A stretch of DNA of 64,000 nucleotides from Mediterranea massiliensis (GTDB lineage Bacteria; Bacteroidota; Bacteroidia; Bacteroidales; Bacteroidaceae). The first letter of the stretch is position 1; every line of letters begins with the position of its first letter. Shown piece after piece: positions 36 to 15,580 of this stretch. The notes under the pieces were generated by a model. The model had not been told where the DNA came from and ran no database searches. It was given only the letters and a program-made list of their open reading frames with translations. The stretch covers positions 248,001 to 312,000 of the forward strand of contig SUYA01000002.1 of the NCBI GenBank assembly GCA_015060695.1, given 5' to 3'. A program made the position numbers and the translations under genes.

Positions 36-162
36 GAAACTATCCGTTTCTCCCCATGAAACAAACTGTTTCAAGGCGTGAAACAAAGTGTTTCAGCGTA
101 CGAAACAAACTGTTTCACCCCATTGAAACAAAGAGTTTCATAGCGATGAAACAGATAGTAGT
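36..162. repeat. Tandem array of short palindromes GAAAC-N5-GTTTC (5 full copies plus 1 degraded), period 22-23 bp
   Basis: Copies read directly: GAAACTATCCGTTTC 36-50, GAAACAAACTGTTTC 58-72, GAAACAAAGTGTTTC 80-94, GAAACAAACTGTTTC 102-116, GAAACAAAGAGTTTC 125-139, degraded GAAACAGATAGTAGT 148-162. Confidence 0.93.
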
Positions 163-13480: not shown

Positions 13481-14575
13481 CTATAATTGTTCATTAATAT
13501 ACATTGCTATGCCGCGCTGAGAAGCAATGAAAGCTCCTCCTACCATACGGTTACCTTGATAAAAAACGGCCGACTGACCCGGTGTAACAGCAGATGCTTC
13601 TTCTCGAAAATGTACTAACAATCGACCATCGTCTATAGGACGCACATCACAAGGAATAGGACGACTACGGTAACGAATACGCACGGATAAATCAGCCAAC
13701 CCTACAAAATCCATTTGATTAGGGAAGAAAGGTTGCTCCACTAACATATAGTAAGTTTTCAGTTGTTCGGCATCACCCAACATTACTGTGTTTTTCTGCG
13801 GATTTATTTTAAGCACATATGCAGGCTTTCCTAATGCTATTTCCAATCCTTTACGCTGGCCGATAGTATAATAAGGGAAGCCTTTATGTTCACCCAACTT
13901 CACTCCTGCTGAGTTAACAAACCAACCTCGTCCTATCTGTTCGTCTATTTGGGGGGAATATTGCCGCAAAAAGTCGCGATAATCTCCTTGAATGAAACAC
14001 ACTTCCATACTTTCTCCTTCTTCGGCTTTTAATGAATATCCTTTCGACTTCAAATAATCGCGAACTTGCAATTTTGTAAAAGTGCCTAAGGGAAAGATGC
14101 AACGACGCAATACATCTTGCGAGAGTTGCCAAAGGAAGTAGGATTGGTCTTTTTTCTCATCCTCGCCTACTGCAATATAGACTGTATCACCCTCTTCCTC
14201 CAAACGACTGTAGTGGCCGGTAGCTATATAAGTACAATCCAAACGGTCGGCCCATTGGGTAAGGATACGGAATTTGAAGCGAGGATTACAGATGACACAT
14301 GGATTTGGGGTACGTCCGTTACAATATTCATCTATAAAGTTCTGTACTACCACTTGACGAAAGGCTTCGCGCTCATCTACAATGTAGTGTTCAATATTCA
14401 TTTGTTCAGCCAAACGACGTGCTTCAACCGGCTTTTCACCCCACACCCACATAGTCAAGCCCACAACATCATAGCCCTGTTCTTGCAACATTAAGCAGGT
14501 GGCAGTACTATCAATACCCCCACTCATCCCTACCAACACTCTGTTTCCTTTATGCTCCATTCTTGCATTATTCAT
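13481..14575 (-). CDS. mnmA: tRNA-specific 2-thiouridylase MnmA
   Basis: '[18 protein letters not shown]' PP-loop; 'TPNPCVICN', 'ATGHYSRL', 'SMEVCFI'. Confidence 0.94.
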
Positions 14576-14781
14576 TCGGGAAGCAAATATACAACATTTC
14601 GCTTGATATAAGTAGAATTTTCCTATAAATAATTTAAGTTTCGCAAGTAAAGAAAGTATAGTTTTTGGTGCTGTATATCACAGAAAAAATGAATCGCTTT
14701 CAGAGTCACTAAGTAGTACTTAATCCTAATAGCAATGAGCCAAATAGATTAGCAATCGAAGGATTTTTCCATCTACCTGAT

Positions 14782-14861
14782 TTACCTATAGGTAGAAGAG
14801 CAACTACCTATAAGTAGTGAGCCAACTACCTATAGGTAATCGACTAACTACCTATAGGTAG
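14782..14861. repeat. Tandem array of 14-bp palindromes (CTACCTATAGGTAG), 4 copies at exact 22-bp period
   Basis: TTACCTATAGGTAG 14782-14795; CTACCTATAAGTAG 14804-14817; CTACCTATAGGTAA 14826-14839; CTACCTATAGGTAG 14848-14861; 8-nt spacers ending in AA. Confidence 0.95.
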
Positions 14862-15169
14862 ATGAATAACTTGATATAGACAATCTAAATATTTAATTAT
14901 CAACATATTAGAATCATCACAAGTTAAACACACAAACACTACAGCAAAACCATTTGCATGCTAACTAAATGTAACGCATGTTCGTCATAAAAACAGACGT
15001 TTTCTTATGGCCTTTGATTTTCTTTCAAAAGAGTAACCCATGCAGCTTGCGAAACTTAAATACATAACATTTGTTAGCTATAAGAGTTATCATGCAAATC
15101 AATATCTATGAAAGAATAAAATCTGTACATTACAATCCTATAATTAAGACTCTCAAATGATTACTCTTA

Positions 15170-15580
15170 CTATTTTTGCTTCGATTTATCCACCTCCTCC
15201 AAAAGAGTATCATCGTAATTCCCCAACCAATCGTATAACTTCATACGAGCTTTTTCCTTAATAGCAGGTGTTATATTGATCCATACAGCATGAAGTGCCC
15301 AGAGCAATGCCGAAAAGTCATCAGTATATCCAATTATAGGAAATACATCGGGCAAAAGATCGAGCGGCAATATAAAATAGCCCAATGCACCATATATCTT
15401 GGCTTTATCTGCCTTAGGTACATCGGGTGATTGCAACACATAATAAAGTAATAATACAGCATAAAGAGGACGCGCACCGGCTTTACGACCGGTGCGTTTT
15501 ATCTTTGTCCACAAATGGTTTTCATCATAATGTTTTGCGTAACTTTCAATATTCTTCGGTTGTCGTTTCATAGAGGGCAA
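15170..15580 (-). CDS. YkvA/DUF1232 family protein
   Basis: 'KIYGALGYFILPLDLLPDVFPIIGYTDDFSALLWAL' characteristic DUF1232 motif. Confidence 0.85.
   Translation of the reverse strand: MPSMKRQPKNIESYAKHYDENHLWTKIKRTGRKAGARPLYAVLLLYYVLQSPDVPKADKAKIYGALGYFILPLDLLPDVFPIIGYTDDFSALLWALHAVWINITPAIKEKARMKLYDWLGNYDDTLLEEVDKSKQK

Follow-up and report, generated by a model that had tools for sequence, protein, structure and literature searches.

The window analysed here, a 64,000-nucleotide stretch of the Mediterranea massiliensis genome, contains an array of four short palindromes at 14782-14861. The array is held within a non-autonomous MITE of 426 bp (14634-15059, plus strand), which was delimited from its two inverted ends, the copies elsewhere in the genome and the list of ORFs. 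The MITE sits between an MnmA/TrmU-type tRNA-modification gene (13481-14575, minus strand; PF03054, PF20258 and PF20259) and a gene for a DUF1232 protein (15170-15580, minus strand; PF06803). Its left end is 58 bp upstream of the mnmA start, and the gap between the two contains a candidate Bacteroides-type -7 motif (TATATTTG, 14584-14591, minus strand), assigned by motif match only. No relative with conserved mnmA-DUF1232 synteny was found among the genomes searched, and no unoccupied version of this insertion site was seen.

The four units, none of which is assigned to a strand, are TTACCTATAGGTAG (14782-14795), CTACCTATAAGTAG (14804-14817), CTACCTATAGGTAA (14826-14839) and CTACCTATAGGTAG (14848-14861). 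The second is a variant found in identical form in other copies of the element, and the fourth is perfect. The pitch is exactly 22 bp, each unit has 6-7 of 7 possible arm pairs, and the three 8-nt spacers (AAGAGCAA, TGAGCCAA and TCGACTAA) all end in AA. The unit starts, pitch and AA-ending spacers are as described in an earlier sequence-only reading of this DNA. That reading also spoke of four copies of one 14-mer; there are indeed four palindromic units, but the exact 14-mer occurs in unit 4 only, and units 1-3 are each one base off. A degraded fifth unit, suggested at 14870, is not supported: it has 6 mismatches and 3 of 7 arm pairs, and the position is unconserved in other copies.

In ten Markov shuffles of the window, arrays with at least three phased palindromes were absent at every pitch from 15 to 35 bp. 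Phased palindromes are hence more frequent here than in shuffled sequence, contrary to one outcome that the earlier reading had allowed for, and a chance origin of the array is excluded. The only clear 22-bp matches in a scan of the window were this array and a second one at 36-162, described below. The array does not fit a CRISPR, in which repeats of the usual CRISPR length would be separated by spacers unique to the locus: its repeats are 14 bp and its spacers 8 nt, and the same spacers are present in different copies of the MITE.

An IS4-type MITE and its copies

The left terminal inverted repeat of the MITE (TTAAGTTTCGCAAG, 14634-14647, plus strand) matches the right one (CTTGCGAAACTTAA, 15046-15059, minus strand) at 14 of 14 positions. 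Outside these ends are target-site duplications, ATAAATAAT on the left (14625-14633) and ATACATAAC on the right (15060-15068), which agree at 7 of 9 positions and have no strand. The array is preceded by an IS-derived left end, or leader (14633-14744, plus strand; 76% identical by blastn to an IS4-family left end), and followed by a tail segment (14862-15045, plus strand) in which no similarity to that IS4-family element was detected. No ORF of 80 or more amino acids lies inside the MITE, according to the ORF list for the window. The term MITE was applied to multicopy elements of 50-1000 bp that lack a transposase gene and have inverted ends, target duplications and an autonomous relative that shares their ends; size, copies, missing transposase gene, inverted ends, target duplications and end-sharing relative were all found for this element.

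The relative was reached through left-end remnants in three other genomes (G060, G066 and G067). It is a complete 1.56-kb IS on a B. salyersiae plasmid (NZ_CP081900.1) with perfect 15/15 ends, TTCAAGTTTCGCAAG, and a transposase of 479 amino acids, a 405-residue part of which matches the NCBIfam model transpos_IS4_4 at 392 bits (cut-off 250). The first 112 bp of this IS, up to the start codon of the transposase, share 76% identity with the MITE at its left end (blastn). The plasmid IS is likely to be an autonomous relative of the MITE: the two have near-identical ends of 14-15 bp and similar left segments of 112 bp, but the IS carries a transposase and no palindrome array, whereas the MITE has no trace of a transposase body. 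Because the ends and the left segment match, the MITE is a derivative of the IS4 family, with the array and the tail in place of the transposase body. With IS ends but no transposase, it must have been mobilised in trans; no transposase of its IS4 family was located in its own genome.

A 60-residue query built from IS remnants in relatives (L113 and L118) led only to an HU-like gene joined to the remnant, and to no transposase. In both of these loci (positions 1261-1503 of each), the IS4 left end and the transposase start codon are fused in frame to an HU-like gene fragment, and the resulting 80-residue hybrid ORF adjoins a fucosidase-like gene.

The 2.53-Mb genome (G000) contains 123 sites that match TACCTATAGGTA with at most one mismatch, compared with 9 for a reversed-pattern control, and 91 pairs of sites spaced by 22 bp, compared with none for the control. 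At least 110 of the 123 near-exact sites sit in phased arrays, which leaves roughly as many solitary sites as the control gives (9). The arrays occupy 30 loci in both orientations; they share their spacers and the mismatch in unit 2, and are therefore copies of one element. About 20 of the 30 loci are copies of the MITE, with homology extending well past the array, and many of these are truncated on one or both sides; the other loci, about 10, have the array without MITE flanks. Full-length copies measure 423-429 bp between the ends TTAAGTTTCGCAAG and CTTGCGAAACTTAA, and both ends are recognisable in at least six copies. Two copies have perfect 9-bp target duplications, AGATTTTAT at L044 (a reading that is ambiguous by one base either way) and ATAAAATAT at L045, and in older copies the duplications are weak or lost. 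By simple ORF calling all 30 loci are intergenic, with neighbouring genes in tandem at 18, divergent at 6 and convergent at 6, which is no orientation bias; nor is there any bias of array position toward promoters or 3' ends across the 30 loci. Comparison of the copies shows that this predicted mobile element made 9-bp target duplications, reached about 20 intergenic sites and later decayed. At one locus (L176, positions 106-326, on contig C24), a MITE with the CTACCTATAGGTAG array directly adjoins a 22-bp array of a different palindrome, GAGTTAACTC.

The closest described element is BrickBuilt, a MITE of P. gingivalis that consists of a leader, a 23-bp tandem minisatellite, a tail and short inverted ends (Klein 2015, PMC4596501). 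BrickBuilt has about 20 copies, all of them intergenic and many of them truncated or reduced to the repeat, and is characterized by the unit AGAYCATARTATCCTCTCRTRTG, up to 22.8 repeats, IS5-type ends GAGACCTTTGCA and irregular target duplications (PMC4596501). Both elements are mobile carriers of a minisatellite, and they agree in the leader-repeat-tail layout, intergenic placement, copy number and order of bacteria. The present MITE differs in having four palindromic 22-bp units of unrelated sequence, IS4-type ends (TTAAGTTTCGCAAG), 9-bp target duplications and a strong gradient of constraint, and membership in BrickBuilt is ruled out by the different unit, ends and IS family. The sequence-only reading could not assign the array to a named element. 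The array is now seen to form the central part of an IS4-type MITE with copies in many places of the genome, and knowing the IS family of the element that carries it explains its dispersal.

Constraint on the palindromes and their probable function

The mobility of the element must be distinguished from what is preserved within it: the IS4-type ends account for movement, and the palindromes and their pitch are what is kept. In ten copies of the MITE, the mean pairwise difference is 0.014 for the palindromes, 0.071 for the spacers, and 0.22 and 0.31 for the two 60-bp flanks (palindromes versus flanks, p = 2e-12; palindromes versus spacers, p = 0.004; columns treated as independent). In 30 arrays from other genomes, the units keep YTACYTATARGTAR and the spacers vary; the palindromes and pitch are likewise retained in other species with different spacers. 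Sequence comparison thus shows the MITE itself, its spread, and the constraint on palindromes and pitch.

One explanation for this conservation is that the array is an inert minisatellite that hitch-hikes in the MITE, having arisen by slippage and being conserved through youth or recombinational homogenisation, so that the 22-bp period is meaningless. Minisatellite-bearing MITEs are known (PMC4596501), and the number of units differs between arrays. The spacers are also conserved relative to the flanks, and homogenisation or gene conversion could thus explain part of the conservation of the array. However, the palindromes diverge five times less than the intervening spacers, they and the pitch are kept in other species despite different spacers, and a 22-bp period common to unrelated palindromes (see below) is not predicted by slippage. 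An inert array is accordingly rated as unlikely.

The palindromes might instead act as RNA hairpins or DNA cruciforms that affect mRNA stability, bring about termination or block a process by their structure; such roles have been put forward for REP and BrickBuilt. The array does fold strongly as RNA on either strand (z-scores of -8.8 and -9.2), but the z-score is uninformative because any tandem palindromes fold well. Compensatory arm changes, which had been suggested as a comparison, were looked for across the units, and no excess of paired changes was found. In other species, both sides of pair 1-14 had changed in 7 units against 10.1 expected, and both sides of pair 5-10 in 8 units against 10.6; in the genome itself the counts were 0 against 6.0 and 2.1, though units in MITE copies are related by descent and these counts are not independent. 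Conservation is highest in the central TATA, where a hairpin would have its loop, and all 112 units of the genome have it unchanged. In addition, no terminator-like site was found, no Rfam match exceeded the gathering score, and the 30 loci are not preferentially placed at 3' ends. A role as hairpins or cruciforms is for these reasons quite improbable.

Invariance of the TATA together with the lack of arm covariation fits a putative site for a dimeric protein whose outer positions are degenerate, and does not fit a hairpin under selection. A sequence-specific dimer site without arm covariation is also what would be looked for in an operator of an HTH_3 protein, and this is what the units present. 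The variable positions are C/G, so that mutation bias contributes, and AT-biased mutation could partly mimic the pattern.

A similar site occurs in a setting that suggests regulation. When 84,980 species were scanned for two units 22 bp apart, the 27 stretches recovered came from Bacteroides species and from four loci in Oscillospiraceae/Clostridia. The four Clostridia loci have the pair TTACCTATAAGTAG-N8-CTACTTATAGGTAA, with centres 22 bp apart, flanked by a small HTH_3 gene (PF01381) on one side and a small divergent gene on the other. This layout is that of a repressor operator, and shows that such a site and pitch can, as far as gene arrangement indicates, serve an HTH_3 protein. The Clostridia loci with HTH_3 proteins (XRE/Cro-CI type) thus resemble the MITE array in the palindrome and the 22-bp spacing of centres; they differ in having a two-site inverted operator at a single locus, whereas the MITE has four sites in direct orientation and has carried them to many loci. 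A search of the genome of the array gave no close homologue of this Clostridial repressor (best E 0.007, 28% identity).

Based on these data, the array is probably the internal cargo carried by a MITE of IS4-family descent, with its units serving as tandem operator sites for helix-turn-helix dimers. Each of the four YTACYTATARGTAR units would most likely bind one dimer of a sequence-specific helix-turn-helix protein. A value of 11 bp per turn is often given for negatively supercoiled bacterial DNA. The 22-bp pitch would correspond to two helical turns, so that adjacent dimers would lie on the same side of the helix and could bind cooperatively. Copies of the element would then scatter a ready-made docking platform for several dimers through intergenic DNA, and such a platform may act on transcription, by repression or insulation, or may attract a protein that organises the chromosome. 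We infer both the binding of dimers on one face and its downstream effect. A regulator site was among the possibilities raised in the sequence-only reading, and it fits the constraint data, the covariation data and the putative operator in Clostridia. If MITEs do spread working operator arrays, they would provide a route for regulatory rewiring in gut bacteria.

Other palindrome arrays with a 22-bp pitch

The second array in the window (36-162, no strand assigned) consists of GAAAC-N5-GTTTC palindromes at a 22-bp pitch and belongs to another dispersed family, which occupies 9 loci of this genome. Members of this family (the window array and L209-L216) share long flanks, with GGCGCACAAAACAGACGCAATACA on one side and a TGTCACA-rich segment on the other. 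In Bacteroides sp. UBA939 (L143, L146, L160, L162-L164 and L167), CTACCTATAGGTAG arrays are found in a different dispersed element, AAGGGAAAAACCGGGCAGGATAAGTCAA ... TGCATAAATAGCTTGTAAATATGC. Since the GAAAC, UBA939 and MITE elements differ, phased palindromes have been taken up by dispersed elements more than once. With 30 loci in the genome, the array at 14782-14861 is not a one-off duplication.

Sequence-blind scans of the same genome found 22.0-bp arrays of GAAAC-N5-GTTTC, TTGGCA-N5-TTGCCA, GAGTTAACTC, GTGAGCA-N4-TGCTCAC and GGAAAC-N4-GTTTCC, and scans of other Bacteroides found GTACCA-N5-TGGTAC, GAACCA-N5-TGGTTC, TTAAACTGACAGTTTA and TTGCCA-N6-TGGCA. In stretches that were not chosen for arrays, there were 6 in 400 kb of the genome itself, 2 loci in 360 kb of genome G065 and 1 in 400 kb of other Bacteroides genomes (L286-L305); none occurred in 277 kb sampled from the order's other families, and shuffled sequence gave 0-0.2 arrays per pass at 22.0 bp. 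The genus survey covered about 1.4 Mb of Bacteroides DNA in 70 stretches. Among the TRF rows taken from it (periods 14-46, at least 2.5 copies), period 22 is dominant, with 30 of 57 rows, some of which overlap. Palindromes with arms of at least 5 occur in 20 of the 30 period-22 rows, versus 5 of the 27 rows at other periods. The proposal that the class is set by palindrome architecture and 22-bp pitch, not by sequence, is therefore well founded, and no evidence was found for a common replication mechanism, which had been offered as one source of the arrays.

The exact 22-bp spacing of unrelated arrays across the genus suggests a shared use. A further proposal, which is offered tentatively, is that these are genus-wide intergenic nucleoprotein platforms: 3-6 palindromes of unrelated sequence would be spaced at exactly 22 bp, each kind binding its own protein from a family that shares an oligomer geometry, and would be repeatedly captured and dispersed by MITEs. 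It is the 22-bp geometry across unrelated palindromes that a specialist would find surprising, and it points to an undescribed DNA-binding protein or site family in a genus that is dominant in the gut. In the open-access full texts searched, phased palindromes with a 22-bp pitch were not found described for Bacteroides.

A single chromosome-organising or partition system (Noc/SlmA/ParB-like), with the phased arrays of varied sequence as its sites, would account for dispersed intergenic palindromes at about 30 loci and for several sequence families with one pitch. This is very unlikely, because pairs of the CTACCTATAGGTAG form are present in just 17 of the 160 genomes of the genus, with very uneven copy number, unlike a housekeeping system, and copy number tracks the spread of the element.

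REPs have a one-sided GTAG/CGTC tag and are associated with RAYT (PMC3733652). REP/BIME and the P. gingivalis repeats MITE464/PgRS resemble the array as dispersed intergenic palindromic or tandem repeats; however, the REP tag is one-sided and lies outside the stem, whereas the present unit is symmetric; a RAYT gene would be flanked by the repeats, and the Y1 gene of this genome shows no association with the arrays; and the PgRS unit is 41 bp versus 22 bp here. Mobilisation of the palindromes by a Y1 (REP-associated) transposase is scarcely credible: the palindromes are short, multicopy and intergenic with a GTAG end, and the genome has one Y1 transposase gene whose upstream palindrome resembles another 22-bp array, but that gene is not near the CTACCTATAGGTAG-type arrays, genome G065 has 22-bp arrays without a PF01797 match, arrays were present at 1 of 29 Y1 loci scanned, and the MITE has IS4-type ends and target duplications.

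The palindrome upstream of this only Y1 gene is GTGAGCA-N4-TGCTCAC (L103, 999-1016), and a 22-bp array of it lies elsewhere in the genome (L217, 13597-13660); this palindrome and the Y1 gene are possibly a true REP/RAYT pair. In another genome (G005), a contig with a Y1 transposase also has six AAAAGCCCGGGCTTTT palindromes, repeated every 41 bp (L242, about 1160-1390), and 41 bp is the length of the PgRS unit as well. A tandem array with a 23-bp period and 19.4 nearly identical copies (TACTGTAAGTTCGACTGTTGCCG) is present in a further Bacteroides genome (L305, 8208-8654).
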